Assembly (NCBI RefSeq): GCF_019977295.1
Contig: NZ_AP024651.1
Coordinates: 868,001-932,000 of the forward strand
DNA: 64,000 nucleotides
From: Arthrobacter sp. StoSoilB20
GTDB taxonomy: Bacteria > Actinomycetota > Actinomycetes > Actinomycetales > Micrococcaceae
Reading direction: 5' to 3'
Position 1 is the stretch's first letter; every line of letters starts with the position of its first letter. Position numbers and translations under genes: made by a program. A model generated the notes under the pieces. That model saw only the letters and a program-made list of their open reading frames with translations, was not told the origin of the DNA and did no database searches. Shown in pieces: positions 17,911-44,280 of the stretch.

Positions 17911-18825
17911 GTGAACCTTCGCCATTCTGCCCTCGCCGTCCTGGTCGCCGTCCTCTGGGGCATCAATTTCGTTGCCATCGACCTCGGCCTGCACACCAAC
18001 GGCAGGGAAGTTCCTCCACTGCTTTTTGTCGCGATGCGCTTTGTCCTCGTCGTCTTCCCCTTCATCCTGTTCATCCGAAAACCGGACGTGGGCTGGAAGC
18101 CGATTCTCGGCGTCGGACTGTTCATGAGCGCCGGACAATTCGGCCTCCTGTATCTGGGCATGGCGCTCGGGATGCCTGCAGGTTTGGCCTCGCTGGTGCT
18201 CCAAGCGCAGGTGCTGTTCACCGTCCTGCTGGCCTCGAAGTTCCTGGGGGAGAGGCCCAGCCGGCGTCAATTGGCCGGCGTGGTCCTCGGCATCGCAGGG
18301 CTGGGAGTGGTGGCGCTGGGGCGCAGTGCTGTGGCACCGGTGCTTCCCCTCATGATTGTCCTGGCCGCGGCTTTGTCCTGGGCTGTCGGCAACGTGGTGG
18401 CAAGGCATTCCAAAGCCGCCTCCGGTTTGGGCCTGGTGGTGTGGTCGGGAGCGGTGGTACCTGTTCCCCTGGCGGGGTTGTCGCTGGTGGTTGACGGCCC
18501 GGGCACGGTCTGGGCTACGCTCACGGACCTGCAGCCGGCCACCATTCTTAGTGCGATCTACACTGCCGTGTTTGCGTCCCTTGTTGGTTACGGCATCTGG
18601 AACCGGCTGTTGTCGCTCTACCCGGGTTCCGACGTCGTGCCTTTCACGCTTTTGGTCCCGGTGATAGGGATGACAGCCGCGTGGCTGGTCCTCAACGAGA
18701 TTCCCACGCTGACCGAAATCATGGGCGGGCTGATACTGCTCCTCGGAGTGGCCATCGCTGTGCTGGGCGCCCGAGGCAAAATCCGCAAGGAAACTCCCGT
18801 TGCGAGGCCCGCTCTGCGCCTTTAG
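17911..18825 (+). CDS. EamA (drug/metabolite transporter) family permease
   Basis: About 304 aa, ten hydrophobic segments in two EamA repeats, with typical signatures VLWGINFVAIDLGLH, LVLQAQVLFTVLLASKFLGE, RRQLAGVVLGIAGLGVVALG and NEIPTLTEIMGGLILLLGV. Homologous permeases export amino acids or metabolites. The GTG at 17911 follows AAGGAAG at rather long spacing. Oddity: the last codons and TAG stop (VARPALRL-stop) are supplied by a 61-nt palindromic element, so the native C terminus has probably been replaced. Regulated most likely by the divergent LysR protein. Confidence 0.9.
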   Translation: MNLRHSALAVLVAVLWGINFVAIDLGLHTNGREVPPLLFVAMRFVLVVFPFILFIRKPDVGWKPILGVGLFMSAGQFGLLYLGMALGMPAGLASLVLQAQVLFTVLLASKFLGERPSRRQLAGVVLGIAGLGVVALGRSAVAPVLPLMIVLAAALSWAVGNVVARHSKAASGLGLVVWSGAVVPVPLAGLSLVVDGPGTVWATLTDLQPATILSAIYTAVFASLVGYGIWNRLLSLYPGSDVVPFTLLVPVIGMTAAWLVLNEIPTLTEIMGGLILLLGVAIAVLGARGKIRKETPVARPALRL

Positions 18826-18859
18826 ACCTCGGGAAAGCGCGCAGAGCGGGCCTCGCAAC
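18799..18859. repeat. 61-nt palindromic element, single copy
   Basis: Perfect 21-base arms (18799-18819 and 18839-18859) with core GAGGCCCGCTCTGCG, around a 19-nt loop. It overlaps the 3' end of the EamA gene and separates it from the convergent aldehyde dehydrogenase gene; it probably works as a bidirectional terminator. Confidence 0.9.
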
Positions 18860-18867
18860 GTGGGGGA

Positions 18868-20346
18868 TCAGCGCAGCCGGAAGATGGTCCGGTGCCAGTC
18901 CTTCTCCACAACGCCGTCCAGCTCGACCATCACATGCTTCACCTGCGTGTATTCCTCAAAGGAGTAGGCGGACATGTCCTTGCCGAAGCCGGATTGCTTG
19001 AAGCCGCCGTGGGGCATCTCGGAAATGATCGGGATATGGTCGTTCACCCAGACGCAGCCGGCGTTGATCTCGCGGGTGGCACGCATGGCCCGCTGCAGGT
19101 TGTTGGTCCAGGCCGACGCTGCCAGTCCATAGACGGTGTGGTTGGCCAGGTGGATCGCTTCGTCATCCGTATCGAACGGAAGGACCACCAGGACCGGGCC
19201 GAACACTTCATCCTTGACGATTTCCGAGTCCGGGCCTGCGTCCACCACCAGGGTGGGCCGGTAGAAGGCGCCGTTTCCCAAACTCCCATCCGTCGGCGCA
19301 TAGCCGCCGGCCATCACCTTGCTGTAGCTCCGGGCGCGATCCACCATCCCCGCCACATGGTCCCGCTGCTTGAATGACGCCAGTGGGCCAAGGTCCGCGT
19401 CCTCATCCCCAGGAACCCCCAGGGTGATCCCCTCGAAGCGGGCTGCGACCTTGGCCACGAATTCCTCGTACACGCTCCGGTGCACAATGGCGCGGGTGGC
19501 TGCGGTGCAGTCCTGCCCGGTATTGATGAGCGAACCAGCAACAGCGCCATGCACTGCGGCGTCCAGCGTGGCGTCGTCGAACACCACGAAGGGTGCTTTT
19601 CCGCCCAATTCAAGATGCACGCGCTTGGCATTGACGGCAGCAGCTTCCAGAACCGTGCGGCCTACAGCGGTGGAACCCGTGAAGGACACCATATCCACGT
19701 CCGGATGCCGCATGAGGGCAGCTCCAACAGTGGCGCCGTCGCCCACAACCACGTTCACCACGCCGTCGGGCAATCCCGCATCAGTGAGCGCCTGCGCGAA
19801 GAGGAGGGAGGTCAAGGGTGTGATCTCGGCGGGCTTGAGGACCATGGTGTTGCCGGCCGCGATTGCGGGCAGGATCTTCCACGCCGCCATCTGCAGCGGG
19901 TAGTTCCAGGGAGCGATGGAGCCCACCACGCCAATGGATTCGCGGCGGATGGACGAGGTGTGCTGAGGGGAGTATTCAGCTGTGGCTTTGCCCTCCAGGT
20001 GGCGGGCTGCCCCGGCGAAGAAGTCGATGTTGTCGATGGTTCCGGGGACGTCGAACTCCCGGGTCAGGCGCAACGGCTTGCCCGTCTGGGAACTCTCCAC
20101 GCGGGAGAACTCTGCGGCCCGTTCCTCCATGATCCTGGCAAACCTTTGCAGGATACCGGCCCGTTCCCCGGCCGTGGTCCTGGACCACGCGGGGTAAGCG
20201 GAACGGGCTGCTGCGACCGCGGATTCGAGGTCCGCCACGGAAGCCAGGCTCACGGTTTCAACCACTTCGGAGGTTGCCGGATTGATGACGTCCAGGGTGG
20301 TGCCCGACGTGCCGGGCAGTAGTTGTCCATTGATGAACTGATGCAT
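18868..20346 (-). CDS. Aldehyde dehydrogenase, gamma-aminobutyraldehyde dehydrogenase-like
   Basis: 492 aa NAD(P)-dependent aldehyde dehydrogenase. Visible landmarks: PWNYPLQMAAWKILPAIAAG (cofactor), FTGSTAVGRTVLEAAA, ELGGKAPFVVFDDA (general-base Glu), NTGQDCTAATRAIVHRSVY (catalytic Cys) and EVFGPVLVVLPFD. Overall sequence is closest in my reading to gamma-aminobutyraldehyde/betaine-aldehyde enzymes, which oxidise omega-amino aldehydes from polyamines. It lies beyond a TetR gene and near an amidohydrolase, an ABC importer and an FAD oxidoreductase, consistent with amine catabolism. The substrate is inferred. Confidence 0.85.
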   Translation of the reverse strand: MHQFINGQLLPGTSGTTLDVINPATSEVVETVSLASVADLESAVAAARSAYPAWSRTTAGERAGILQRFARIMEERAAEFSRVESSQTGKPLRLTREFDVPGTIDNIDFFAGAARHLEGKATAEYSPQHTSSIRRESIGVVGSIAPWNYPLQMAAWKILPAIAAGNTMVLKPAEITPLTSLLFAQALTDAGLPDGVVNVVVGDGATVGAALMRHPDVDMVSFTGSTAVGRTVLEAAAVNAKRVHLELGGKAPFVVFDDATLDAAVHGAVAGSLINTGQDCTAATRAIVHRSVYEEFVAKVAARFEGITLGVPGDEDADLGPLASFKQRDHVAGMVDRARSYSKVMAGGYAPTDGSLGNGAFYRPTLVVDAGPDSEIVKDEVFGPVLVVLPFDTDDEAIHLANHTVYGLAASAWTNNLQRAMRATREINAGCVWVNDHIPIISEMPHGGFKQSGFGKDMSAYSFEEYTQVKHVMVELDGVVEKDWHRTIFRLR

Positions 20347-20522
20347 GGTGTGCCGTGCTTTCCCTGCCGGGCGTCGCTGTCCGGCAGTGGTGAAGGAACA
20401 GTGGTGAAGGAACGACGCCGGGTGGCGGCGTGCGTGCGGAGGATGGGTTGCGTTTCGGGGCGGCTATTCGAAAAAGCCGGTCAGAAAACGGGCAATAAAT
20501 CTGGCGCAGCGAGGTGAGGATC

Positions 20523-28560: not shown

Positions 28561-29979
28561 GTGAAGACCACCGTTTTCGAACGGAACGTCCCGCAGGCCG
28601 CCGTCGTATCCCATGCGCTGGAAGGTGCCGCCCACCGGCCCTTCTGGATCGATGACCTGAAGGACTCAGCAACGCACTACCCCCGGCTCGACGGCAATGC
28701 TGCCGCCGACCTCGTCATTATCGGCGGCGGCTACACCGGCCTGTGGACGGCACTTCGTGCCAAGGAACGGGACCCCGGCAGGACTGTGATCCTGCTGGAA
28801 GCAGAGCACGTGGCCTGGGCGGCGTCGGGCCGCAACGGCGGCTTCTGCGAGGCCAGCCTCACGCACGGCCATGAGAACGGCAAGAACCGCTGGCCCGATG
28901 AGCTGGAGATTTTGGACCGGCTGGGCATGGAGAACCTGGACCGCATGGAGGAAGCCGTTCAGAAGTACGGCATGGAATGTGATTGGGAGCGGACCGGGGA
29001 GCTCAACGTCGCCGTCGAACCGCACCAGGTGGCTTGGCTCCAGGAGGACGACAGCCCCGGCAGCGTCTACCTGGACCAGGAGGCCGTCCGGGGCGAGGTC
29101 AATTCCCCCACGTATTTGGCGGGCCGCTGGCACAAGGACTCCGTGGCCATGGTCCATCCGTACAAACTCGGCCTTGAACTGGCGCGGGTGGCAACGGAGC
29201 TGGGAGTAGTGATCCACGAGGGCACCCGCGTCCGTGAACTCAAGGACCACGAAGACGGTGTCACGGTGGTGACGGAACGGGGAAACGTCGAAGCCGGGCA
29301 TGTGGTCCTTGGCACCAACGTTTTTCCCTCCCTGCTCAAGCGGAACCAACTCATGACCGTGCCGGTGTACGACTACGCGCTCATGACCGAACCTCTGTCC
29401 GCGGAGCAGTTGGAGTCCATTGGCTGGACCAAGCGCCAAGGAATTGGGGACATGGCCAACCAGTTCCATTACTACCGCATCACCAAGGACCACAGGATCC
29501 TCTTTGGCGGGTACGACGCCCTCTACTTCCGGGGCCGCCGCGTGGACCAGCGGCACGAGTACCAACCGGCGACGTGGGAGCGGATCGCCTCACACTTCTT
29601 CACCACGTTCCCGCAATTGGAGGGTGTGAAATTTACGCACAAGTGGGCCGGTCCCATCGATTCCAGCACGCAGTTCTGCGCCTTCTTCGGCACCGCGCGG
29701 AAGGGACGGGTGGCTTATGCGGCGGGCTTCACGGGACTCGGGGTGGGCGCCACAGCGTTCGCCGCTGACGTTCTGCTGGACCTGCTGGCCGGGCTGGATA
29801 CTGAGCGTACCCGTGTGGAGATGGTCCGGAAACGGCCGCTCCCGTTCCCTCCCGAGCCGCTGGCTTCATTGGGCATCAACCTCACCCGATGGTCCATGGA
29901 CAGGGCCGACCACAACCAGGGAAAGCGGAACCTCATCCTCAAAGCGCTCGACGCCGTGGGGCTGGGTTTCGACTCCTGA
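28561..29979 (+). CDS. FAD-dependent amine oxidoreductase (DAO family)
   Basis: 472 aa. The FAD-binding Rossmann motif is ADLVIIGGGYTGLWTALRA, the adenine-side Glu is in VILLEAEHVAWAASGRNGGF, and the C-terminal FAD contact is GRVAYAAGFTGLGVGATAFAADVL. It resembles gamma-glutamylputrescine oxidase PuuB and DadA-like enzymes that oxidise C-N bonds to aldehydes plus ammonia or imines. With the nearby aldehyde dehydrogenase this would convert an amine to the acid. GTG at 28561 follows GGAG. It is the last gene before the palindromic array and 39 bp after the ATPase gene, so likely in the same operon. Confidence 0.88.
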   Translation: MKTTVFERNVPQAAVVSHALEGAAHRPFWIDDLKDSATHYPRLDGNAAADLVIIGGGYTGLWTALRAKERDPGRTVILLEAEHVAWAASGRNGGFCEASLTHGHENGKNRWPDELEILDRLGMENLDRMEEAVQKYGMECDWERTGELNVAVEPHQVAWLQEDDSPGSVYLDQEAVRGEVNSPTYLAGRWHKDSVAMVHPYKLGLELARVATELGVVIHEGTRVRELKDHEDGVTVVTERGNVEAGHVVLGTNVFPSLLKRNQLMTVPVYDYALMTEPLSAEQLESIGWTKRQGIGDMANQFHYYRITKDHRILFGGYDALYFRGRRVDQRHEYQPATWERIASHFFTTFPQLEGVKFTHKWAGPIDSSTQFCAFFGTARKGRVAYAAGFTGLGVGATAFAADVLLDLLAGLDTERTRVEMVRKRPLPFPPEPLASLGINLTRWSMDRADHNQGKRNLILKALDAVGLGFDS

Positions 29980-29999
29980 CCTCGCCGCCGCGGGGTTGC

Positions 30000-30359
30000 G
30001 TTGTGGGGCCTGCTTTGCGGGGTTTGGTGGCGGGGAGGGGTGTAGAGCGGGCCTCGCAACGCAGGGGTGGTTTGGCTGTGTGGCCTGCTTTGCGGGGTTT
30101 GGTGGCGGGGATGGGTGTAAAGCGGGCCTCGCAACGCGGGGTGGTTGTGTTGTGGGGCCCGCTTTGCGCGGTTTGGTCCCGGGGAGGCGTGTAGAGCGGG
30201 CCTCGCAACGTGGGGTTGGTTGCGTTGTGTGGCCTGGTCTGCACGGTTTGGTTCCGGGGAGGCGTGTAGAGCGGGCCTCGCAACGTGGGGGTGGTTGCGT
30301 TGTGGGGCCCGCTTTGCGGGGTTTGGTGGCGGGAAAGCGCGCAGAGCGGGCCTCGCAAC
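30000..30359. repeat. Tandem array A: five 61-nt palindromic elements, period about 75 nt
   Basis: Units at 30000-30060, 30075-30135, 30149-30209, 30224-30284 and 30299-30359. Each has left arm like GTTGTGGGGCCCGCTTTGCG, 19-nt loop (GGTTTGGT...CGGGGAG), and right arm with AGAGCGGGCCTCGCAAC. They are separated by 13-14 nt GTGGGGTGGTTGC-like spacers. The last unit runs into the stop of the membrane-protein gene. Array fills the gap between two convergent genes; ORFs crossing it are repeat artefacts. Confidence 0.9.
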
Positions 30360-30369
30360 GTGGGGGTGG

Positions 30370-31078: not shown

Positions 31079-31139
31079 GTTGTGAGGCCCGCTCTGCGCC
31101 CTAAACACCAGTGAGAGTGCGCAGAACGGGCCCCACAAC
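31079..31139. repeat. 61-nt palindromic element, single copy
   Basis: Arms 31079-31099 and 31119-31139 (19 of 21 positions pair) with a 19-nt loop. Between the start of the membrane-protein gene and the end of the TetR gene, both minus strand, so it sits in the path of transcription from the YhgE operon and is a likely terminator. Confidence 0.88.
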
Positions 31140-31152
31140 GGGGCGGCCAAGG

Positions 31153-31833: not shown

Positions 31834-33866
31834 ACTGCGATCTCCGGCTTCAGCGTCTTGAGGGTCCACACCTTGTGCTTGCGGACGGCGAGCGTGGACA
31901 ACGCCATTCCCAGCAAAGTGTATCCAAGCAGGCCAAGGACAGTAGGCCAGATCATGCTGAGCTCACCACCGTAGATGAGGTGGCGCATGCCGGTGACCAC
32001 GTAGCCCATGGGCAGGACTTCGTGCACCACGTGCAGCGGCATAGGCGTGGTCTGCCACGGGAACGTACCGCCCGAGGACACCAGCTGCAGGACCAGCAGA
32101 ATCAGCACCACGAACTTGCCGGGTGTTCCCATGAGCGCCACGATGCCTTGGATGATCGCGCTGAAGGCCATCACGGCGGCCAGCATGAACAGCCACATTC
32201 CGATGGGGTGGGCCGGGTTCAATCCCAGTCCCAGGTTCACCACGAGGGTGAGGATGGTGGCCTGCAGTACCGAGACCACGAAGAACGGCAGCCAGCCTCC
32301 GACGGCGATTTTCCACGCGGGGGCGTTCGACGCCAAGGCCCGCTGGGTGATGGGCCGCATGGCCTGGACCAGCATGAACACGCCGATCCACAAGGCCAGG
32401 GTCAGGAAGAACGGTGCCAGGCCTGCGCCGTAGGAGCCCGCTTTGGCCTGCGAGACGTTGTCCACAGCTACCGGATCAGCGATCACCTTGGACACGCTGC
32501 TCTTCTGGTCATCGTTCGGATTGGGGATATCCCCGGCACCCTTGGCAAGTTCCGTGGCCAGGGTGTGCGAACCATCGGCTGCCGTCACTGCACCCGTGGC
32601 GAGCTGGCCTGCGCCGTCGTCCAGTTGGCGGGCGCCGTCGTCGAGCTTGGCTGCGCCGTCCAAAGCGGACTGCTGTCCGGCCGCGAGCGTTGCTGCGCCG
32701 GTACTGAGCTGGCCGGCACCTGCAGCGGCCTTCGAGATGGCATCGGTGAGTGTTGGCGTGGCAGCGGCGAGCTTGGAGGCACCGGCACTTACAGCGGCTG
32801 AACCGTCCGAGAGTTGCTGGATCTTGGCGGCGTCGCCGGAGATCTTTGCCTTGGCGTCCGTCACGGGGCTCGAGGCCGCGGCGGCGTCGAAGTCAGCAAG
32901 GACCTTGGCCGCCTGCTCCTGCGTCAGAACGCCGGCGGCGACCAGCCGGGCGTTGGACTCTACAACTCTGGTGCGCAGGCCCTTGTCCGCCGCTTCCAAC
33001 TGGCCGACGACGTCCTGGACTTTCGCGTTCAGCTCCGCGTTTCCGGCAGCTACCTGGGCGGCACCGTCGGCAAGCTTTTTGGAGTCGGCAGGCAGGGTTG
33101 CCGTTTTGTTTTTCAGTTCGGTGAGGCCTGAGCTGAGTTGGCCTGCACCGTTGTTGAGCTGAACGGCACCATCGCGCAATTGGGTCTGTCCGGCCACGAG
33201 TTGATCGGCGCCGGTCACCAGTTGGGTGGTTCCGCCATGGAGGGTAGCTGCGCCGTCACTGAGTTTTCCCACGCCCGTGGCCAGCTCGGAGGCTCCGTCG
33301 GCTGCCTTCACGATGGACGCGTGGATGGTGCCGAATCCGGTGAGGAGCTGATTGGCTGTTTCCTCGCCCACTTCCTTGGCCACGGTGGAATGCACTGCGG
33401 TGGTGAGCTTGTCCACGATGGTGCTCAGGAGGTAGTTGTTGGCATCGTTGGTGGTGACGTGGAGCATGGCCTGGTTGGCAGCGTCGAAGCTGCCGGGGGA
33501 GGCCAGATTGGCGGAGAAGTCCTTGGGGATCCGCAGGGCGAAAGCGTACTCACCTGTCCGGACACCGGCATCTGCGTCCTCGGCGCTGGAGACTTGCTTC
33601 CAGCTGAAGACGTGGCCCTCAACCAGGCTGTCTGCAACTTTCCTGCCGGCCTGAAGCTCCGTGCCGTCAGAGGACGTGGCTCCCGTATCTTCGACCACCA
33701 GGGCAGCGTCGATCTGGTTCAGGTTGCCGTATGGATCCCAGTTCGCGTAGAGGTACACGGCTCCGTAGAGCAGCGGAACCATGGTCAGGGCGAGGATGGT
33801 CAGCTTGGGCAGGAGCCCGCCGGTCATGCGCTTGAGTTCGGAGCGGGCGAGCCGCAGAACAGTCAC
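31830..33866 (-). CDS. YhgE/Pip domain membrane protein (ABC-2-like)
   Basis: 678 aa. One N-terminal transmembrane helix (LTILALTMVPLLYGAVYLYA), a long extracytoplasmic region, then about five C-terminal spans, the YhgE/Pip plan. The extracellular part (about 190-450) is made of repeats of the type L-x-x-G-A-x-Q-L, giving a helical-bundle stalk. Homologues include phage-infection protein Pip and ESX-like/Mmp export factors. Starts with GTG overlapping the ATPase gene stop by 4 bp. Together they look like a two-part exporter, although the ATPase is degenerate. Confidence 0.9.
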   Translation of the reverse strand: MTVLRLARSELKRMTGGLLPKLTILALTMVPLLYGAVYLYANWDPYGNLNQIDAALVVEDTGATSSDGTELQAGRKVADSLVEGHVFSWKQVSSAEDADAGVRTGEYAFALRIPKDFSANLASPGSFDAANQAMLHVTTNDANNYLLSTIVDKLTTAVHSTVAKEVGEETANQLLTGFGTIHASIVKAADGASELATGVGKLSDGAATLHGGTTQLVTGADQLVAGQTQLRDGAVQLNNGAGQLSSGLTELKNKTATLPADSKKLADGAAQVAAGNAELNAKVQDVVGQLEAADKGLRTRVVESNARLVAAGVLTQEQAAKVLADFDAAAASSPVTDAKAKISGDAAKIQQLSDGSAAVSAGASKLAAATPTLTDAISKAAAGAGQLSTGAATLAAGQQSALDGAAKLDDGARQLDDGAGQLATGAVTAADGSHTLATELAKGAGDIPNPNDDQKSSVSKVIADPVAVDNVSQAKAGSYGAGLAPFFLTLALWIGVFMLVQAMRPITQRALASNAPAWKIAVGGWLPFFVVSVLQATILTLVVNLGLGLNPAHPIGMWLFMLAAVMAFSAIIQGIVALMGTPGKFVVLILLVLQLVSSGGTFPWQTTPMPLHVVHEVLPMGYVVTGMRHLIYGGELSMIWPTVLGLLGYTLLGMALSTLAVRKHKVWTLKTLKPEIAV

Positions 33867-34812: not shown

Positions 34813-36270
34813 TTAGAGTCCGTACTTTTCCAGAAGCCGCAGCCACACTTCGCTGATGGTGGGATACGACGGAACCGCATGCCACAGGCGGTCCAGCGGC
34901 ACTTCGCCCACAATGGCTATGGTGGCCGAGTGGAGCAGTTCGGCGACACCCGGGCCCACAAAAGTGGCTCCAAGGATCACCTTCCGATCCTCATCCACCA
35001 CGATCTGCGCCCAGCCCTTGTAGTCCGGTGAATACAGTTGGGAGCCGGAGACGTTGATGGGAAGTTCCACTCCGGTGACATTCCTGCCTTGCAGGAGCGC
35101 CTGCTCCAGGCTTGGGCCCACTGCGGCAACTTCGGGATCGGTGAACACGACGCTTGGGACAGCATGGTCATTGGCGGTGTGGGCCCACGGGCTCCACGGT
35201 TCGGGTGATCCTTTGAGCTTGCCATTGGCCCGGGCGACGATTGCATCGCCGGTGGCCCGGGCCTCGTATTTGCCTTGGTGGGTCAGGAGTACCTTGCCGG
35301 CCGCGTCTCCGGCGGCATACAGCCAGAGCCCACTGGTGCCATCGCTTGCAGGACCTTCCACGAGCCCGCTTGGATCGGTGGTGAGGCGGAGCGGTTTGCC
35401 GTCCCGGGCTTCGACGCCCACGTTGTCCAGGCCCAGATTGGACAGGGCCGGGTGCCGCCCGGAAGCGACCAGAAGTTTGTCGGCTGTGACCTTTTTGCCG
35501 TCGAACGTCACAGTCACTGAGCCGTCGTCGTTCTTCTCTGTTTTCTCCACATCAGTGTGGACGTGGACGGTCACCCCATCGGCGCGGAGCCCGGCCATGA
35601 CCAGGTCGGCGGCCTCTTCCGGGTAGCTGCTCAGCAGGCGGCCGCGGGCAATCAGTGTGACGTCCGAGCCGAGGCGGGCGAAAGCCTGGGCCATCTCCAC
35701 GCCGGCCACGCCACCGCCGAGGACTGTGAATCGCCGGGGAACTTCCTTGGCTGCCGTGGCGCCGCGGGTGGTCCAGAAGGGAACATCCTTCAAGCCCTCA
35801 ATGTCCGGGATGGTGGGGGTCGACCCCGTCGCGATGACCACCGCATGGTGGGCCTTGAGCGCGTAGTTGGTGCCATCGATCCCGTCCACCTGAACCTCAC
35901 GTGGGCCTGTAATACGGCCGCGTCCACGGATCAACTCGATGCCGGCGCTATCAAGCCATTCGACCTGGCTGCCGTCCTGCCAGTTATTGGTGAACCAGTC
36001 CCGGTTTTTCAGCACGGCCTGGGGGTCCACCACTCCGGTCACAGCCTCGGAGGCGCCGGGCACCACCTGGGCTGCATGGAGGACATTCCCTGGCCGGAGC
36101 AGTGCCTTGGAGGGTATGCAGGCCCAATAGGAGCACTCGCCGCCTACCAGTTCGCTCTCAACAATCACCGCCGTCAAGCCGCCCCGGACCACCCGGTCCG
36201 CCACGTTTTCTCCTACGGCGCCCGCGCCGATCACAATTACGTCGAATTCCCGGGAGCTCTCGGCAGTCAT
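34813..36270 (-). CDS. Dihydrolipoamide-dehydrogenase-like NAD(P)/FAD flavoprotein
   Basis: 485 aa disulfide reductase family member. FAD site: DVIVIGAGAVGENVADRVV. The redox pair is ECSYWACIPSKALLRP, with CxxxxC spacing intact. NAD(P) site: FTVLGGGVAGVEMAQAFARL. The second FAD contact is LYAAGDAAGKVLLTHQGKYE, and the C-terminal interface domain ends AVPSYPTISEVWLRLL, including the His-x-x-Pro-type region (HAVPSYPT). Could be an Lpd, mercuric-reductase-like or mycothione-type enzyme. No dehydrogenase complex subunits are nearby. Its 3' end lies 12 bp from the YhgE-operon operator, its 5' end beside array B. Confidence 0.88.
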   Translation of the reverse strand: MTAESSREFDVIVIGAGAVGENVADRVVRGGLTAVIVESELVGGECSYWACIPSKALLRPGNVLHAAQVVPGASEAVTGVVDPQAVLKNRDWFTNNWQDGSQVEWLDSAGIELIRGRGRITGPREVQVDGIDGTNYALKAHHAVVIATGSTPTIPDIEGLKDVPFWTTRGATAAKEVPRRFTVLGGGVAGVEMAQAFARLGSDVTLIARGRLLSSYPEEAADLVMAGLRADGVTVHVHTDVEKTEKNDDGSVTVTFDGKKVTADKLLVASGRHPALSNLGLDNVGVEARDGKPLRLTTDPSGLVEGPASDGTSGLWLYAAGDAAGKVLLTHQGKYEARATGDAIVARANGKLKGSPEPWSPWAHTANDHAVPSVVFTDPEVAAVGPSLEQALLQGRNVTGVELPINVSGSQLYSPDYKGWAQIVVDEDRKVILGATFVGPGVAELLHSATIAIVGEVPLDRLWHAVPSYPTISEVWLRLLEKYGL

Positions 36271-36298: not shown

Positions 36299-36650
36299 GT
36301 TGTGAGGCCTGGTGTGCAGGGTTTGCGTGGGTTGGAGGGTGCGGAGTGGGCCTGGCAAGTGTGGGTGGTGTGTTGTGAGGCCTGGTGTGCAGGGTTTGCG
36401 TGGGTGGGAGGGCGCAGAGTGGGCCTCGCAAGTGTGGGTGGTGTGTTGAGAGGCCTGGTGTGCAGGGTTTGCGTGCGTTGGAGGGTGCAGAGCGGGCCTG
36501 GCAAGACGCACCCTTGTCTTGGGAGGCCGGTGTGCAGGGTTCGCGTGGGTTGGAGGGTGCAGAGCGGGCCTCGCAAGTGTGGGTGGTGTGTTGGGAGGCC
36601 CGGTGTGCAGGGTTTGCGTGAGTTGGAGGGTGCGGAGTGGGCCTCGCAAC
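36299..36650. repeat. Tandem array B: five 61-nt palindromic elements, variant subfamily, period about 73 nt
   Basis: Units at 36299-36359, 36372-36432, 36445-36505, 36518-36577 (one base short) and 36590-36650. Left arms share GAGGCCTGGTGTGCAG, loops GGTTTGCGTG, right arms end GGGCCTCGCAAG or similar, with 12-nt TGTGGGTGGTGT spacers. Same 21-19-21 architecture as the other copies but a different sequence subtype (GGTGTGCAG versus GCTCTGCGC). It occupies the divergent gap between the flavoprotein and sulfurtransferase genes. Confidence 0.9.
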
Positions 36651-36662: not shown

Positions 36663-36690
36663 ATATATTGGGATACATATCTCAAAATAT
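36663..36690. promoter_or_regulatory. AT-rich imperfect palindrome before the sulfurtransferase gene
   Basis: TATTGGGATACATATCTCAA forms the core of an inverted repeat in which 12 of 14 positions pair. It is strikingly AT-rich in a GC-rich region, sits 25 bp upstream of the gene start, and fits a regulator site or promoter overlap. Confidence 0.5.
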
Positions 36691-36715
36691 GGATTTCCTG
36701 CCTAGGCTGCTGTGC

Positions 36716-37555
36716 ATGGAAGAAGAACTGAAGCCTTTCGTCGACTGGAGCTGGTGTGCGGCCAACCCCGGGACGTTTGTTCTCGCAGATTCCCGGTGGT
36801 ACCTCGATGGATCTTCAGGGAAGGACGCCTACGAGAGCGGCCATCTTCCCGGGGCCGTTTTCATCGACTTGGATCAGTGGTTGTCCGGCCCTGCGTCTCC
36901 TGGGGCCGGGAGAAACCCGTTGCCTGATCCCGAGGTCTTTGCCCAAGGCATGCGGGATGTGGGCATCAGCGATGCTGACACGGTGGTTGTCTATGACGAC
37001 GCCGGGGGAGTCATTGCCGCCAGGCTCGTCTGGATGCTCCGGTCAACGGGGCACAAAGCCGCCATCCTTAACGGGGGCATGGCCGCTTATCCGGGCGGCC
37101 TCAGCACGGAATCCTCGTCCCGACCGAAGGGAAACTTCTCATCCCGCGCGTGGCCGGTGCACCTTCTGGCGGACATCTCCGAGGCTTCTTCCACCGCGTA
37201 CCTGAGATTGGATGCGAGAAACACCGACCGCTTTGAAGGGCGTCAGGATCCTGTGGACCCTCGTCCAGGGCACATACCCGGCGCCGTGAATGTCCCTTGC
37301 CGTGGAAACCTTGACCCCTCGGGACAGCTGCTTCCCGAGCTTCAGATTCGCGCCAACTTTGAACGCGCCGGCGTCGAGTCCGCGCAGAACATCATCTCCT
37401 ACTGCGGTTCCGGAGTGACGGCCTGCCACAACCTGCTGGTGATGGAACAGCTTGGAATGGGTCAGGGCAGGCTGTTCGTCGGCGGATGGTCCCAGTACTC
37501 GCGCGCGCAGGAGAGGCCCGTGGCGACCATGATCCAGCCTTACGCCCCGTTGTGA
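36716..37555 (+). CDS. sseA: Sulfurtransferase (rhodanese, two domain)
   Basis: About 279 aa from the ATG at 36716, which has TAGG 9-10 nt upstream; an in-frame ATG at 36689 lacks a site. Two rhodanese domains: the N-terminal inactive domain begins VDWSWCAANPGTFVLADSRWY and contains SGHLPGAVFIDLDQW; the C-terminal domain has VPCRGNLDPSG and the catalytic Cys230 in YCGSGVTACHNLL. The CGSGVTA loop is the type seen in 3-mercaptopyruvate and thiosulfate sulfurtransferases. The stop codon TGA lies inside the left arm of a 61-nt palindrome. Putative regulation by the palindrome at 36663-36690. Confidence 0.9.
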   Translation: MEEELKPFVDWSWCAANPGTFVLADSRWYLDGSSGKDAYESGHLPGAVFIDLDQWLSGPASPGAGRNPLPDPEVFAQGMRDVGISDADTVVVYDDAGGVIAARLVWMLRSTGHKAAILNGGMAAYPGGLSTESSSRPKGNFSSRAWPVHLLADISEASSTAYLRLDARNTDRFEGRQDPVDPRPGHIPGAVNVPCRGNLDPSGQLLPELQIRANFERAGVESAQNIISYCGSGVTACHNLLVMEQLGMGQGRLFVGGWSQYSRAQERPVATMIQPYAPL

Positions 37556-37609
37556 GGCCTGCTTTGCGGGCTTCGCCTGCCTTTTAGGGCGCAGAGCGGG
37601 CCCCGCAAC
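37549..37609. repeat. 61-nt palindromic element, single copy
   Basis: Arms 37549-37569 and 37589-37609, core GAGGCCTGCTTTGCGG pairing with GCGCAGAGCGGGCC, 19-nt loop. It supplies the TGA stop of the sulfurtransferase gene and separates it from convergent nanE, so it is a likely bidirectional terminator. A 12-bp duplication (CAACGCGAGGGG) follows the right arm. Confidence 0.88.
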
Positions 37610-37629: not shown

Positions 37630-38316
37630 CTAAGCCTGCATCGCACCCTTGAACCAGCCCGTGATGCTCGCCGGGTGGGTGATCGCTGTACCAACCACCA
37701 CCGCGAACGCTCCGGCGTCCAGGGCTTGCCGTGCGTGGGTAGGGGTGTGGATCCGGCCCTCAGCGATGAGCGGCTTGCCCAACCCAGCAGAAGCAATCTG
37801 CTCCAACAGCTCCACATCCGGGCCGTCCGTCTTGGGGCGCTCGCCGGTGTAGCCGGACAACGTGGTGCCGATCAAGTCAGCCCCGGCCTCGACGGCTGCC
37901 ACGGCATCGTCAAACGAGCCACAATCTGCCATGACCAGCGCGTGTGATTCTGCGTGGATACCCGCCACGGTATCGGATAGGGACAGCCCATCCGGCCGGG
38001 GACGCCGGGTTCCATCAATCGCAACAACATGGGCCCCGGCGTTCGCAACGGCAAAGGCATGCCGAAGCGTCGGGGTGATGAAAACGCCGTCGTGACCGTC
38101 TTTCCAAAGGCCAATAACAGGGACCTCGACGGCGGTGCGCGTGAACTGTACGTCGGCCAACCCTTGGACGCGGATCGCCGCCGCGCCGCCGATGACCGCT
38201 GATGCCGCCACTTGCGCCGTGGTCCGGGGATCGCGCATGGGCTCTCCGGGGTACGCCTGGCAAGAGACGATCAGCTGGGAACGGAGGGCTTCGAGGCCTT
38301 CGGGCGTGAGGATCAT
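37630..38316 (-). CDS. nanE: N-acetylmannosamine-6-phosphate 2-epimerase
   Basis: 228 aa TIM-barrel enzyme that turns ManNAc-6-P into GlcNAc-6-P. Recognisable segments are LIVSCQAYPGEPMRDPRTTA, GGAAAIRVQGLADV, VIGLWKDGHDGVFITPTL, DGLSLSDTVAGIHAE and GLGKPLIAEGRIHTPTHARQ, ending with the substrate-binding FAVVVGTAITHPA. It overlaps nanK by 4 bp (ATGA) and is the last gene of the sialic-acid operon on the minus strand. Confidence 0.93.
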   Translation of the reverse strand: MILTPEGLEALRSQLIVSCQAYPGEPMRDPRTTAQVAASAVIGGAAAIRVQGLADVQFTRTAVEVPVIGLWKDGHDGVFITPTLRHAFAVANAGAHVVAIDGTRRPRPDGLSLSDTVAGIHAESHALVMADCGSFDDAVAAVEAGADLIGTTLSGYTGERPKTDGPDVELLEQIASAGLGKPLIAEGRIHTPTHARQALDAGAFAVVVGTAITHPASITGWFKGAMQA

Positions 38317-39335
38317 GATGTTTCCCTTATTTCAAGGACGAGTTTCGCGGCGCCAACAATGGCGGCGGTGTTGCCGAGGGTTGCCCGGATGACGGGCACT
38401 GCAGCCAGGGGTGCCAGTAGTTCCAAACGCAGGGCAGACTCCATGGGCTTCCACCAGGGGTCGCCGGCATCGGCCAAGCCACCGGAGACCACCACGGTCT
38501 CGGGATCGAGGATATTAATGAGCCCGCCCACGGCTTGGCCTGCCGCTGCTGCGCCAACCTCGACGGCACGCAAAGCAGCAGCCCGGCTGTCCGCGGACGC
38601 TGCGGCAGCACCGTCGTCGTGCGTGTCTGAGGCCGAAGCCGCCAGCGCAAACACGCCCCGCGTGTCGGCTGCGTCCAGGGACGAACCGCCAAAGCGAAGG
38701 TAGGCCTGATACAAGGCAGGGCCGGAAGCAATGGCCTCAACGTGCCCGGAAGCACCGCAGACGCACGGCAAGGGAGCACCGTCAGCGCAGGCATAAGGGG
38801 AAGCGAAATGTCCAACATGCCCGCCCACAAACCGGTGCCCCAAAACGGGAGCGCCGTCCACCACAAAGCTGCCGCCTACGCCCGTACCGAACGCCACCAT
38901 GAGCGAGCTGGAGGAACCAGCGGCCGCGCCCAGCCAGGCTTCACCCAGGGCGTGCGCATGGACATCGTTGACGGCCCGCACCGCGGCGGCCGGCAGGGCA
39001 AGCCGGGAACACAGCCCGGAGACAAGTGCAGTGCCGGCCCAGCCATGAATCGCGTCGGTCGCTGACACAACAACCCCGGAAGAAGCGTCAATAACCCCCG
39101 CGGAGCCGACGCCGACGCCGGAAACCGAAATTCCGGCGTCGGCAGCGCGCTCCGCCAAGCCCGTGATCAGCGCAGCGGTGGCGTCGAGGATGGCTTCGCC
39201 ACCGGCCCGGTTCAACGTCGGAATGGTCTCCGAGATGAGCACGTCGCCGGAAGGGGAGACAACCCCGGCGGCCGTCTTGGTGCCACCGAGGTCAACGCCG
39301 ATCACGTGGGCGGCTTGGGTCAGGGGAGCGGTCAT
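38313..39335 (-). CDS. nanK: ROK family kinase, likely N-acetylmannosamine kinase
   Basis: 340 aa. Phosphate-binding motif VIGVDLGGTKTAAGVV at the N terminus, ROK signature region NDVHAHALGEAWLGAAAG and VAFGTGVGGSFVVDG. The zinc motif reads APLPCVCGASGHVEAIASGP: its third Cys is replaced by His, a known variation that may keep zinc. Placement between nanE and nanA indicates ManNAc as substrate, giving ManNAc-6-P. Overlaps nanE by 4 bp; 6 bp from the nanA stop. Confidence 0.9.
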   Translation of the reverse strand: MTAPLTQAAHVIGVDLGGTKTAAGVVSPSGDVLISETIPTLNRAGGEAILDATAALITGLAERAADAGISVSGVGVGSAGVIDASSGVVVSATDAIHGWAGTALVSGLCSRLALPAAAVRAVNDVHAHALGEAWLGAAAGSSSSLMVAFGTGVGGSFVVDGAPVLGHRFVGGHVGHFASPYACADGAPLPCVCGASGHVEAIASGPALYQAYLRFGGSSLDAADTRGVFALAASASDTHDDGAAAASADSRAAALRAVEVGAAAAGQAVGGLINILDPETVVVSGGLADAGDPWWKPMESALRLELLAPLAAVPVIRATLGNTAAIVGAAKLVLEIRETS

Positions 39336-39341
39336 TGAAAC

Positions 39342-40259
39342 CTAGACCAGCCCGTTCCGCTCCAGGATTTCGCGAATCGCGGCGGTCTCAGCATCATTCA
39401 AAGACAGCATCGGCGAGCTCATGGTGTTGGACTCGATGACGCCCATCACCTGCAAAGCGGTCTTGAACGCGCCCAAGCCTGCAGCACCTCCGGAGACACG
39501 GCCGTTGGGGGTGTAAACGATCTCGAAGACGTCCGCCAAACGGTCCTGTTCCCGTGCAGCAAGGGCCCAGTCACCGGCCTGGGCGGCGTCGAACAGCCGA
39601 CGGTAACCGGCCGGATCAACGTTGCCAAGGCCTGGAACAACGCCCTGCGCGCCGCCCAGGAGGGCGCCGTCCACTACTACTTCGTGGCCTGTAAAGATGT
39701 CGAAGTTGGGGATGTCTTTTGCCGCGAGCAGGAGCTGGCGGAAGGAGACGTCGTCGCCGGAGGAGTCCTTGACGCCGGCAATGACTCCATCGCGGCCGAG
39801 GCGGACCAAGAGCTCGGTGGGCAGCTTGAAGTGCGTGCGGACCGGGACGTCGTAAGCGAAGATCGGCTTGTCGATGGCGGCGTGGATGCCGCGGAAGTGG
39901 GTCTCGGTTTCCGCGGCATTGCCGATCGCGTAGTACATGGACGTGACAACGATCGCGTCGGCGCCGAGGTCCACTACCTTCCGCGCTTCTTCGATCACAC
40001 GGTGGGTGGTTTGCTCGTTGGCCCCCACGATCAGGGGGACGGCTCCTGCGTTGGCATCGGCGATGGTGGAGACCACCAGCTCACGCTCGTCGTTGGTCAG
40101 GTAGGGCACTTCGCCGGAGGAGCCGAGGACGAAAAGTCCGGACACACCGCCGTCGATCAGGTGTTTGGTGACGTTCTTCAGCGACGCGGTGTCGATGCTG
40201 CCGTCGGCGTGGCGGGGGGTGATGACCGGGGGGATGACGCCCTGGAACTGAGTGGACAC
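39342..40259 (-). CDS. nanA: N-acetylneuraminate lyase (DHDPS/NAL family)
   Basis: 305 aa from GTG at 40259, with GGAG 6 nt upstream. Cleaves sialic acid into ManNAc and pyruvate. Catalytic Lys164 is in GVKDSSGDDV, the Tyr in IFAYDVPVRT (136), and the substrate loop is GLFVLGSSGEVPYLTNDE. The family also contains DHDPS and other aldolases; the assignment to NAL rests on nanK, nanE and the sialic-acid-type transporter upstream. The longer frame to 40454 runs against the ATPase gene and is not used. Confidence 0.88.
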   Translation of the reverse strand: MSTQFQGVIPPVITPRHADGSIDTASLKNVTKHLIDGGVSGLFVLGSSGEVPYLTNDERELVVSTIADANAGAVPLIVGANEQTTHRVIEEARKVVDLGADAIVVTSMYYAIGNAAETETHFRGIHAAIDKPIFAYDVPVRTHFKLPTELLVRLGRDGVIAGVKDSSGDDVSFRQLLLAAKDIPNFDIFTGHEVVVDGALLGGAQGVVPGLGNVDPAGYRRLFDAAQAGDWALAAREQDRLADVFEIVYTPNGRVSGGAAGLGAFKTALQVMGVIESNTMSSPMLSLNDAETAAIREILERNGLV

Positions 40260-40296
40260 AGAATTCTCCGTTGTTTGTAGCTTGTGAAGGGAAAAA

Positions 40297-41112
40297 CTAG
40301 ATGTGGAGCAGGCTCGGCGCGGCGCCCAGCAGCTTCTTGGTGTAGTCGTTGCTCGGGTTGTCGAAGACCTGGCTGGCTGTGCCTTGCTCCACGATCTTGC
40401 CGAAGTACATGACGCAGATGCGGTCCGAGACGTAGCGGACGGTCTGGATGTCATGGGAAATGAAAACCATGCCCAGGTTCAGCTGCTTCTTCAGGTCGGA
40501 CAGCAGGTTCAGGACCTGCGCGCGGACCGAGACGTCCAGGGCCGACGTCGGCTCGTCCGCCACGATGATGTCCGGGTCCAACGCGAGTGCGCGGGCGATC
40601 GCCACGCGCTGGCGCTGGCCGCCGGAGACCTGCGACGGCGTCACCTCGGCTGCCGATTCCGGCAAGCCAACCAGCGCCAACAGTTCCTTGACCTTGGCAG
40701 CGCGGGAGGCGGCGTTGCCGATGCCGTGGATCTGCAGGGGATCGGTGAGGATGTCCTGGATGGTCATACGCGGGTTCAATGCTGTTGCCGGGTCCTGGAA
40801 AACCACGGAGACGGACCTGCCAAACTGCTTGCGCATGGCCGCGTTCCGCTTGATGGCTGGCTTTCCGTGGAACAAGACCTCGCCCGACGTCGGCGGCTGG
40901 AGTCCCACAAGCACTGAAGCGAGCGTGGACTTGCCGCAGCCGGACTCACCCACGATGCCCACGGTTTCGCCACGGCTGATGGTGAAGTCCACGCCGTCCA
41001 CGGCTTTGACGATGTTCGGCCGGAACAGCCCACCGGTCCGTGCGCGGTGGTAGACCTTGACGTCCTTGAGTTCGATGACCGGCTTAGGGTCTTGCTGGAT
41101 TGAGAGGCTCAT
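40297..41112 (-). CDS. ABC transporter ATPase (DppF/OppF type) of the sialic-acid operon
   Basis: 271 aa: ELKDVKVYHRARTGGLFRPN, Walker A GESGCGKSTLASVLVG, signature [19 protein letters not shown], Walker B IIVADEPTSALD and H-loop FISHDIQTVRYV. Single NBD that pairs with the NBD of the fused permease-ATPase gene upstream. Overlaps that gene by 4 bp. Provides ATP hydrolysis for uptake. Confidence 0.92.
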   Translation of the reverse strand: MSLSIQQDPKPVIELKDVKVYHRARTGGLFRPNIVKAVDGVDFTISRGETVGIVGESGCGKSTLASVLVGLQPPTSGEVLFHGKPAIKRNAAMRKQFGRSVSVVFQDPATALNPRMTIQDILTDPLQIHGIGNAASRAAKVKELLALVGLPESAAEVTPSQVSGGQRQRVAIARALALDPDIIVADEPTSALDVSVRAQVLNLLSDLKKQLNLGMVFISHDIQTVRYVSDRICVMYFGKIVEQGTASQVFDNPSNDYTKKLLGAAPSLLHI

Positions 41113-43229
41113 TTCGCGTCCTCCTTCAAGTGGCTTGCCCAGTAGTGGTCGGCATCGCCGCCGTTGACGGTGTCAACCGAAGAAACCTTGGTGAGGACCA
41201 GTGGCTGGTGGGGATCGGCGTCGGGCCTCAGCGAGCGGGCCGCGAAGCGGTCGCCCGTGGCGAAGTCCCGTGGCGAGGGAACCGTGCCGGGGATCTGATG
41301 GAGCCGGACGGCGTCGGCCTCGATGGAGAGCACAGCGCCGAGCAAGCCGCGGGTGTACTCATGCTTGGGGTTCTGCAGGAGCTCCGATGCCTGTGCGGAT
41401 TCCACCACCTGGCCGGCGTACATCACGGTGATCCGGTGGGCGAGGGAAGCCACCAGGGCGAGGTCGTGGCTGACGAATACCATGGCGAATCCGAGCTGCT
41501 CCCGGAGTTCGTTGAGGAGGTCCACCACCTGCTTCTGGACTGTGACGTCCAACGCAGTGGTGGGCTCATCGGCCACCACGATCCTGGGCGAGCGGGAGAG
41601 GGCCATGGCGATCAACACACGTTGGCGCTGCCCACCGGAGAGCTCGTGCGGGTAGCTGGCGAGGGTCCGGACGGGATCCAGTTTCACCATCTCCAGCAGC
41701 TCTGCCGGAGTCTTGCGGCCGCCACGCTTGGTGAGTTGCTCCATCTGGTCCTTGATCTTCATGGACGGGTTCAGGGAGCTCAACGCGTCCTGGTAGACCA
41801 TGGCAATCTGCTCGCCGCGGAGGCCCTCATAGGCCTTGGGACTGCTGTGCTTGGTGCTGGAGTCCAGGAGTTCCTTGCCATCGAAGGTGATGGATCCGGT
41901 GACCTGGGCTGTCTTGGGCAGCAGGCCCATGACAGCCAACGAGGTGATCGACTTGCCACAACCTGACTCGCCCACCAGGCCCATGGTTTCGCCTTCGCGG
42001 ACTGTAAAGGAGACGTTGTCCACGATCGCAATGTCGCCGAACCGGCCCGGGAAGCGAATGGACAGGTTCTTCACCTCAAGGACGTTGCGGGCGTCAGGGG
42101 AAACCTGCGGGAGCCTGTCGGTGCGTTTGGCTTCGATGGCGGCCAACAGTTCCAGTTCACGGTCCAGGAGGAGGTGCGGGTTGGCGGCGGCCACCTTCAC
42201 GTCGGTGAGGACGGCTGAGGTGCCTGCATCCGAGGTGACGGTGTCGCCGGAAGCTGCACGGACGCCGTCGAGCTCGTGTTCCTCCACGACGGAGGGCTGG
42301 GCCACGGAGGTTGCCACTTCGGCGTCGACAGCAACGGCGGCTGACGCGCCGTCGTCGTCCTTTACGGCCGGGGCGCGGCGCAGCTTCGGGTTGACCATGG
42401 CGTCGGTGAGGCCCTCGGCCAGGATGTTAAGGGACAGCACGGTCAACAGGATGGTCAGGCCCGCGAAGGTGGTTGCCCACCAGCCACCGGACAGGACCAG
42501 GTTGCGGCCGTAGGAAATCACGTTGCCCCATGACGGCGCGGGGTCCTGCACTCCGGCACCCAGAAAGGAGAGTGAGGCTTCGAGGATGATGGCGTCGGCG
42601 ACCATCACGGTAGCGAACACCAGCACCGGAGCGGCGGTGTTGCGGACGATGTGCTTGACCAGGATGTAGAAACGGCCTGCACCGATCACGCGCTCGGCGC
42701 GGACGTAGTCTTCGCCGTACTGTGCCAGCACGTTGGCGCGGACCACGCGGGCCAGCTGGGGTGTGTAGATGATGGCAATTGCGATGATGATGGTGGGCAC
42801 CGAGTTACCGAACGCCGCCAGCAGCACGGCGGCCAGCGCGATGCCGGGGAATGCCATGAGGATGTCCATGAGCCGCATGATGATCTCGTTCACGGACTTG
42901 CTGGACGTTGCGGCGAAGGAGCCAAGGAGCGCGCCGGCCAGGATGGCCAAAGCCACGGCGCCGAGGCCGATCATCAACGACGACTGTGCGCCGAAAAGGA
43001 GGCGGGAGAAGATATCCCGGCCCAAACGGTCGGTGCCGAAGAAGTGTTCAGCGCCCGGCGGTGTGGCCGGGATGAAGGTCTCCAAGGGATCGTGCGGGGC
43101 AATGACCGGGGCGAAAATGGCCGCCAGGACAATCACGATGAGGAAGAGCAGGGCGATACGGGAACCCCAGGGCAGGGCTTTGAAGCGAATGCCCGGGGCA
43201 CTCAGCCGTTCTGCGAGCTTGCTGCGCAT
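41109..43229 (-). CDS. Fused ABC permease (DppC type) and ATPase (DppD type)
   Basis: 706 aa fusion. N-terminal 290 residues: DppC-type permease with six spans, FFGTDRLGRDIFSRLLFGA and the coupling loop YGEDYVRAERVIGAGRFYIL. A linker of about 95 residues is rich in Asp, Ala and Val. The C-terminal NBD has GESGCGKSITSLAV (near 415), [19 protein letters not shown] and [11 protein letters not shown]. This permease-ATPase fusion has been reported in Sat-type sialic acid importers, in keeping with the nan genes nearby. It is 3 bp from the DppB-type gene. Confidence 0.9.
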   Translation of the reverse strand: MRSKLAERLSAPGIRFKALPWGSRIALLFLIVIVLAAIFAPVIAPHDPLETFIPATPPGAEHFFGTDRLGRDIFSRLLFGAQSSLMIGLGAVALAILAGALLGSFAATSSKSVNEIIMRLMDILMAFPGIALAAVLLAAFGNSVPTIIIAIAIIYTPQLARVVRANVLAQYGEDYVRAERVIGAGRFYILVKHIVRNTAAPVLVFATVMVADAIILEASLSFLGAGVQDPAPSWGNVISYGRNLVLSGGWWATTFAGLTILLTVLSLNILAEGLTDAMVNPKLRRAPAVKDDDGASAAVAVDAEVATSVAQPSVVEEHELDGVRAASGDTVTSDAGTSAVLTDVKVAAANPHLLLDRELELLAAIEAKRTDRLPQVSPDARNVLEVKNLSIRFPGRFGDIAIVDNVSFTVREGETMGLVGESGCGKSITSLAVMGLLPKTAQVTGSITFDGKELLDSSTKHSSPKAYEGLRGEQIAMVYQDALSSLNPSMKIKDQMEQLTKRGGRKTPAELLEMVKLDPVRTLASYPHELSGGQRQRVLIAMALSRSPRIVVADEPTTALDVTVQKQVVDLLNELREQLGFAMVFVSHDLALVASLAHRITVMYAGQVVESAQASELLQNPKHEYTRGLLGAVLSIEADAVRLHQIPGTVPSPRDFATGDRFAARSLRPDADPHQPLVLTKVSSVDTVNGGDADHYWASHLKEDAK

Positions 43230-43232
43230 GAG

Positions 43233-44189
43233 CTATACCGTCCTGATTCGGGGGTTGATGAGCAGGTAGAGAAGGTCCACCACGATGTTCACCAGAACGA
43301 AGGTGACCGAGATGGTGAGCACCACGCCCTGGACCAGGTTGACGTCCAGGTTGGTGATGCCGTTGAGGATCAGCTGGCCCATGCCAGGGAGGGCGAAAAT
43401 CATTTCAATCACGACGGCGCCGCCCAGCAGGTAGCCCACGCGCAGTCCCAGTACGGTCACCGGGGTGACGAGTGCGTTGCGGAGGACGTTCTTGGAGACA
43501 ACCTCGCGGTAGGGGACACCGTTGCCGATGGCGGTGCGGACGTAGTCGCGGTCCAGTTCTTCCACCATGGAGGTACGGACCACACGGATCAGCGACGCCG
43601 AGACGGGGATGCCGAGCGCAAGCGCCGGGAGGGCCATGGAGTTGAGCCAACCGCCGAAGCCGGATTCCGGCGTCGCAATTCCGCCTGAGGGGAACATCGG
43701 GTTCTCACCGAGCGCGAACCACTGGATGAGCAGGATGCCCAGCCAGAACGATGGCGTGGCGATCGCGGCGATGGAGAAGACACGGACCAACTGGTCCTGC
43801 CACTTGTCGCGGTAGAGGGCGCCGAGGATGCCGAACGCGAGCGAGAGCACGATCGCGATCAGGACACCCAGGAACGTGAGCTGCAGCGTCAGGGGGAACG
43901 CCGAGCCGATCATGGAGGCCACCGACTTTGCCGGCGGGGTGGTAACGCCGAGGTCGAACTGCAGGAGCTTTCCGAGGAAGCGGAAGTACTGCAGGACCAG
44001 GGGATCGTTCAAGCCATTGTCCTGGCGGTACTGTTGCTTCGCTTCTTCGCTGGCGCCGTCACCGAGGGCGGAGCTTGCCTGATCGCCGGGAGCGGCCTGC
44101 AGGACGAGGAAGACGAGCAACGTAATGCCCAGGATCATCAATGGCAGTGCTGCGAGTCTGCGGCCAAGCAAACGCAATATCGTGACCAA
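43233..44189 (-). CDS. ABC transporter permease (DppB type) of the sialic-acid operon
   Basis: About 318 aa with a TTG start at 44189 (LVTILRLLGRRLAALPLMIL), chosen because GGAG lies 6 nt upstream; longer frames run into the palindromic element and are not believed. Features: N-terminal span, RQDNGLNDPLVLQYFRFLG, six spans, and the coupling loop YVRTAIGNGVPYREVVSKNV. Partner of the fused permease-ATPase. A 61-nt hairpin lies between it and the substrate-binding-protein gene upstream. Confidence 0.9.
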   Translation of the reverse strand: MVTILRLLGRRLAALPLMILGITLLVFLVLQAAPGDQASSALGDGASEEAKQQYRQDNGLNDPLVLQYFRFLGKLLQFDLGVTTPPAKSVASMIGSAFPLTLQLTFLGVLIAIVLSLAFGILGALYRDKWQDQLVRVFSIAAIATPSFWLGILLIQWFALGENPMFPSGGIATPESGFGGWLNSMALPALALGIPVSASLIRVVRTSMVEELDRDYVRTAIGNGVPYREVVSKNVLRNALVTPVTVLGLRVGYLLGGAVVIEMIFALPGMGQLILNGITNLDVNLVQGVVLTISVTFVLVNIVVDLLYLLINPRIRTV

Positions 44190-44219
44190 TTTGTTCTCCG
44201 GTTGGTTGGGGTGCTGCTG

Positions 44220-44280
44220 GTTGCGGGGCCCGCTCTGCGGGTTATTCGGGGGATTTACGCCGCAGAGCGGGCCCCGCAAC
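44220..44280 (-). repeat. 61-nt palindromic element inside the sialic-acid operon
   Basis: Perfect 21-base arms (44220-44240 and 44260-44280) with core GGGGCCCGCTCTGCGG and a 19-nt loop, in the 102-bp gap between the substrate-binding-protein gene and the DppB-type permease, both minus strand. Unlike the other copies it is inside a transcription unit. Confidence 0.9.

Follow-up and report, generated by a model that had tools for sequence, protein, structure and literature searches.

The window analysed here comprises 64,000 nucleotides (nt) of Arthrobacter sp. StoSoilB20 (G000:C1:868001-932000 of the single 4,784,108-base (4.78 Mb) contig of an Arthrobacter/Paenarthrobacter genome, hereinafter designated G000) and contains 14 copies of a palindromic element resembling repetitive extragenic palindromes (REPs). 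Four copies stand alone, at exactly the positions given in a preliminary description of the same DNA, and ten form two five-unit tandem arrays; the description also stated correctly that each copy spans 61 nt except for one 60-nt array unit (36518-36577).

Table 1 Copies of the palindromic element in the window and the genes alongside them.
Feature	Coordinates	Strand	Units and arms	Neighbouring genes
single copy	18799..18859	+	perfect 21/21 arms	loop contains the stop codon of an EamA-type gene lying upstream, 17911-18825 (+)
tandem array	30000..30359	+	5 units (30000, 30075, 30149, 30224, 30299), period 74-75	flanked by convergent genes, 28561-29979 (+) and 30370-31029 (-)
single copy	31079..31139	+	2 arm mismatches	13 nt beyond the stop of 31153-31833 (-)
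tandem array	36299..36650	+	5 units (36299, 36372, 36445, 36518, 36590), period 72-73	flanked by divergent genes, 34813-36270 (-) and 36689-37555 (+)
single copy	37549..37609	+	5 arm mismatches	convergent gap; TGA stop of 36689-37555 (+) within the first 7 nt
single copy	44220..44280	+	perfect arms	11 nt beyond the stop of the solute-binding-protein gene 44292-45914 (-) and ahead of the permease gene 43233-44138 (-), in the order solute-binding-protein gene, hairpin, permease gene

The initial view that the arms are perfect or nearly so holds for the singles at 18799 and 44220, which are the two of the 14 window copies without a mismatch, and for 31079, but neither for 37549 nor for the array units, which have 4 to 10 Watson-Crick arm mismatches, many being G.U pairs when read on the + strand. 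The proposed 21-19-21 geometry fits the 61-nt copies; the palindrome nevertheless extends one C..G pair further, and because 14 of 19 genomic singles (the 20 singles found genome-wide minus the irregular 1385822) can form this pair, 63 nt with 22-nt arms is the better description. Mean identity among the 19 singles is 0.83 in the arms and 0.37 in the loops (best loop pair 0.67), and their flanks show C at -1 and G at +1 in 15/19 each, and C at +2 and G at +3 in 11/19. A degenerate two-armed pattern, although blind to 10 of the 14 copies, matches the window six times (four copies, two of them on both strands) versus 0 in 100 shuffles, which bears out the contention that these are not chance hairpins.

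A covariance model built from the 14 window copies, whose own recovery is by construction, gave 109 strand-wise matches in the genome, which resolve into 67 separate copies. They occupy 34 places, of which 20 carry a single copy and 14 a tandem array of 2-5 units (period 72-76). These counts rest on the best 150 of 3178 candidates, and those for relatives on the best 89 scored per genome, so the counts for the copy-richest relatives are lower bounds. No copy was found in 15 fetched control stretches, and 31 of the 33 arm-core matches with at most one mismatch lie inside palindromes, the other two being isolated.

Among 61 genus genomes including G000, 21 give a match at E 0.001 or better and 40 give none; ten are copy-rich, with 20 or more strand-wise matches (G000, G005, G008, G023, G047, G048, G053, G055, G062 and G074). 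The preliminary description envisaged, as arguments for ordinary terminators, arms occurring merely a few times genome-wide, or copies aligned at conserved positions across distant genera with no gain or loss. What is found, besides the 67 copies, is just one match outside the genus, a weak one (E 0.0018), in a 39-genome set that extends to 14 further genera of the order. Inside the genus, copies come and go. The two-armed pattern finds at least 120 stretches in a species-level genome collection; all 80 among the matches listed are named Arthrobacter or Paenarthrobacter, and P. aurescens TC1, P. nicotinovorans, P. histidinolovorans and P. nitroguajacolicus are among the matches listed. Viral contigs hold no exact match to this pattern, a pattern missing 10/14 window copies, and a viral origin was set aside on this result. 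Two plasmid records matched region 30800-31900, the sole region searched, one Arthrobacter record at 81%. The element is not described in the literature found, as judged by titles and abstract openings, where sequence words led to unrelated work. A RepRanger table row for Arthrobacter livingstonensis reads 5,512 and 705, taken here for palindrome counts (table excerpt, PMC12306157).

According to gene calls from our own codon-usage script, with Pfam checks of both flanking genes at five divergent places, the 34 places comprise 15 convergent, 12 co-directional and 7 divergent gaps. Convergent gaps are over-represented compared with the other gaps in the fetched stretches, which were chosen partly around copies (15/34 versus 53/329, Fisher P 0.0003). 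At co-directional places the copy is closer to the upstream stop than to the next start in 11 of 12 cases (P 0.006), or in 9 of 10 without two doubtful places (1150753, whose neighbouring gene call scores low, and 1537199, which falls within a called gene that has no Pfam match). All but one of the 34 places lie outside called genes, four of these overlapping a gene 3' end, and at these four the stop codon of that gene falls inside the element (genome coordinates 886799, 905549, 1064153 and 3919114). This gene-end bias suggests that the element works at the ends of messages, a role absent from the preliminary description. The window also holds a tandem 20-nt repeat of about five copies (55468-55577) at the 3' end of gene 53321-55486.

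RNA folds of five copies reach -31.0 to -53.2 kcal/mol on the + strand and -18.4 to -50.7 kcal/mol on the - strand, with z of -2.9 to -10.0. No Rfam family scores above its gathering score for the element, the window scan giving tRNAs and a c-di-AMP riboswitch only (ydaO/yuaA leader, 11398-11559 on the - strand, 58 bits) and region 29900-31200 sub-threshold microRNA models only. G.U exceeds A.C in every unit of 11/14 arrays (not so in 648338, 4099268 and 4647343); RNA-level selection was considered as the source of this excess and dropped, because of these three exceptions and because whole arrays, spacers too by eye, are G/T-rich.

Strong hairpins sited after stop codons and in convergent gaps are also what ordinary intrinsic terminators resembling one another by chance would offer. 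We give this explanation hardly any credence, since one arm sequence is common to 34 places and restricted to some species, copies form tandem arrays and occur between divergent genes, and the element is without the U-tract of classical intrinsic terminators (5 T in 8 nt at just 2/34 places). A 2014 paper by Czyz, going by its title, reportedly takes a U-tract to be required for termination. The opposite view is represented by the U-less, 'I-shaped' intrinsic terminators proposed in mycobacteria (excerpt of PMC12288462). Like them, the element is a GC-rich hairpin at most 50 nt from a stop at most places and has no poly-U, a likeness of structure and position that applies at many places; unlike them, it is one dispersed sequence family, which the excerpt does not describe for I-shaped terminators.

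The element is not the only palindrome at gene ends. In G000, element-free gaps of 40-400 nt contain a long palindrome in 15/31 convergent, 11/121 co-directional and 4/64 divergent cases, with 0 in block-shuffled controls, and long hairpins are therefore typical of convergent gaps and gene ends in this genome. The same measure scores only 8 of 13 convergent gaps that carry the element, because many array units are imperfect. A palindrome core of G012 type (at most two mismatches) occurs in 32/61 genus genomes, but in 1/10 copy-rich versus 31/51 other genomes (P 0.0045, kinship not corrected). A second group of palindromes, about 66 nt long (CCCAACT...TTGGG), in which the middle arms vary around a central GAGCC-type loop, was seen at the orthologous gap of 4110322 (L260, L261, L264 and L267) and at G000:4640107 (in L066); one type of this group has the core found in 32/61 genomes. 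The window itself holds a long palindrome with 33-nt arms, 91% complementary and unrelated to the element, at 10467-10536.

Comparison between species covers gaps whose flanks gave matches, several of them by eye. At the co-directional 44220 gap the element is present in 11 of 21 genomes; four others (G057, G012, G068 and G059) hold a palindrome of some 66 nt that is unrelated to the element (CCCAACT...AGTTGGG) and two (G061 and G045) another GC-rich hairpin (by eye), so that 4-6 of the 10 element-free relatives have a palindrome, above the 11/121 background. In the 11 orthologs 96% of cells are paired, and both-side changes affect six pairs (reached by 17/500 shuffles) and 19 cells (0/500). 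The orthologous loops are 0.63 identical, or 0.71 in the close clade, as compared with 0.37 for paralogous loops over a slightly shorter stretch, which argues for descent in place. The hairpin lies inside a cluster (37630-45914) of NanE, ROK, DHDPS-like and oligopeptide-type ATP-binding cassette (ABC) genes which, from its Pfam matches, looks like a system for sialic-acid uptake and use.

At the convergent gaps of 4110322 and 4099268, the element occurs in 2/8 fetched genomes and 2/12 genomes, respectively, and other palindromes, unrelated at the former, occupy the gap in five (5/6 element-free; in G057, one of the five, the far flank is rearranged) and six (6/10 element-free); the copy-rich G023 is without the element at both. 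Within the window, the 18799 copy is present in G074 and G048, the 30000 array has two units in each of these two genomes and is matched by a different palindrome in G023, and 31079 corresponds to three units in G074 and one each in G053 and G008, with no unit in G048, G022 or G012 and a gap of 15 nt in G023. The 36299 array is represented by one unit in G023 and by a gap of about 30 nt in G053, and 37549 by a copy in G023 and another palindrome in G053 (by eye). Some of the short window gaps resemble arm remnants (by eye). The changes seen are tandem duplication and internal deletion, with spreading now apparently inactive or rare.

Taken as an explanation of the element, we favour with moderate confidence a lineage-specific, untagged REP-like family without a REP-associated tyrosine transposase (RAYT), whose present role is that of a long, stable RNA hairpin at transcript 3' ends. 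The element would have spread long ago and would since have been inherited, tandem-duplicated and lost. Copies are presumably transcribed and would affect termination or stability: between convergent genes the hairpin may act as a bidirectional block, and between co-directional genes as a 3' cap or partial terminator, probably without a U-tract, by analogy with the proposed I-shaped terminators and with mRNA-shielding REPs. The placement of the 44220 copy between binding-protein and permease genes is like the malE-REP-malF order of E. coli, although the sequences are unrelated. A 1987 study by Newbury, cited in PMC7509114, reportedly found mRNA stabilisation by an E. coli REP.

Several observations weigh against this role. 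Divergent gaps are neither enriched nor depleted (7/34, P 1.0), and while two of the divergent calls concern long gaps, possibly with missed genes, the other five are confirmed by Pfam on both flanks (104142, 836022, 904299, 1378593 and 4240783) and count against a pure terminator role. Five or more T in 8 nt, scarce at the element's places, are found at 10/15 ordinary convergent-gap palindromes. The palindromes of relatives at the two convergent gaps, 11/16 in all, are not clearly above the 15/31 background; convergent gaps therefore favour hairpins, and one-for-one replacement of the element is not shown. No palindrome is visible at the 44220 gap in G022, G065, G004 and G066, nor at 4110322 in G004, nor at 4099268 in G072 and G045, and the last gap shrinks to about 2 nt in G057 and 8 nt in G023. 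As for the compensatory changes at 44220, further pair types are not above shuffles (376/500), the other covariation measures are inflated by related sequences, 10 of 21 pairs are invariant, so that arm conservation exceeds pairing needs, and template switching inside palindromes could yield compensatory changes without selection.

Miniature inverted-repeat transposable elements (MITEs) and palindromes like the enterobacterial repetitive intergenic consensus (ERIC) are small, intergenic and palindromic and have no gene of their own. The element is like them in size, siting and palindromy, and if it were a MITE or a RAYT-type REP, its gene-end siting would be tolerated insertion and its hairpin a transposase recognition site without host function. 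The copies are indeed dispersed and patchy among species, three copies of G000 lie between convergent stops that are only 2 nt apart in G057 (by eye), five places are in divergent gaps, and the orientation of 13/14 arrays with replication is a possible outcome of single-strand (HUH) transposition. We nonetheless judge this origin unlikely. The Y1/RAYT transposase (Y1_Tnp, PF01797) was not found in a genome-wide search of G000 and occurs in 1/61 genus genomes, a non-carrier, and a RAYT/Y1-driven element is rejected on these grounds. No Pfam transposase is present among the 28 of 51 called window genes scanned (genome-wide, PF01797 alone was sought). Flanking direct repeats of at least 2 nt occur in 2, 3 and 1 of the 19 singles for three boundary choices, compared with 3.7, 1.9 and 1.2 in shuffled pairings; there is accordingly no target-site duplication, and a MITE generating one is rejected. 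Nor was a longer element with matching ends seen, using the arm core with at most one mismatch (more diverged ends were not sought). Finally, the paralogous loops, at only 0.37 identity (best 0.67), indicate no recent copying among the 19 singles.

The preliminary characterisation of the element as a dispersed, structurally selected REP/MITE-like sequence is therefore retained in its REP-like half, given 67 patchily distributed copies, compensatory arm changes at one orthologous site, and presence/absence and copy-number differences between relatives, but not in its MITE half, with no target duplication and no longer element seen to share its ends at up to one arm-core mismatch. REPs of the GTAG and CGTC super-families have stems of 5-13 bp, 20-40 nt in all, with G.T pairs in the stems, lie mostly in convergent or co-directional gaps near the upstream stop, whose codon they provide in some cases, and have been suggested to end or shield transcripts (Di Nocera et al. 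2013; excerpts of PMC3733652). The element shares with them the short, dispersed, intergenic palindrome, the preference for gene 3' ends, the stop codon contained in some copies, the G.T stem pairs and the uneven occurrence among species. It differs in its longer stem (21-22 bp) and overall length (about 63 nt, 61-63), in having no unpaired GTAG or CGTC tag in the flanks of 19 singles, in having no RAYT in G000 or any carrier among the 61 genus genomes, in forming head-to-tail arrays instead of mainly opposed dimers, and in not avoiding divergent gaps. We conclude that the element is real and abundant, a REP-like family of some Arthrobacter/Paenarthrobacter genomes, outside the GTAG/CGTC super-families by the tests made, with MITE status not demonstrated.

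The distribution along the chromosome adds a further feature. With dnaA at base 1 of G000, the search yielded no copy within 1.537-3.252 Mb, the terminus-proximal 36%, a zone whose limits lie 1.537 and 1.532 Mb from dnaA and are thus symmetric about the origin; a gap as large arose in 0/20,000 uniform draws. Similar zones exist in G053, where the copy-free part covers 1.207-3.144 Mb of a total of 4.316 Mb, and in G023, whose main contig has a 1.78-Mb zone without a copy. The idea that terminus-proximal DNA is accessory and that old copies were lost with it is weakened, because both empty-zone stretches sampled (12 kb each, 2/2) are conserved in 5/5 relatives. The arrays also show a strand bias: leading-strand G+T is 0.58-0.81 in 13 of 14 arrays, all six convergent-gap arrays included (ten above 0.65, three near 0.58, and an exception at 0.41), versus 0.51 in element-free gaps (standard deviation 0.075, largest 0.77). 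Singles have no strand preference (11/20 co-oriented), their strand calls leaning on the window copies because the model was built from them.

These features invite the proposal that the element is a protein-binding palindrome linked to chromosome organisation or replication and serving the two thirds of the chromosome closest to the origin. The empty zones of the three species, the conservation of the two terminus-proximal stretches, arm conservation beyond pairing and the G/T-rich leading strand of the arrays would all fit such a site, but singles are indifferent to strand, 40/61 genus genomes lack the element and sites differ between close relatives, and we consider the proposal highly unlikely. 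A role at transcript 3' ends, for its part, leaves the empty terminus zone and the array G+T bias unexplained. Both might be reconciled with it if the element were coupled to replication, spreading and growing into arrays near the origin through a RAYT-less single-strand process that acts on the lagging-strand template, its hairpin being recruited only later as a gene-end element in gaps held elsewhere by unrelated palindromes. We regard this combination as rather improbable; if true, replication coupling would explain the empty terminus zone in three species and the G/T richness of the leading strand in 13/14 arrays.

The element extends the known REP-like sequences by a large family from an actinobacterium that has neither a tag nor a RAYT. 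The empty terminus zone found in three species gives models of element spread an oddity that can be tested, and the orthologous gene-end gaps held by unrelated palindromes constitute a natural experiment on whether REP-like hairpins are selected or merely tolerated.

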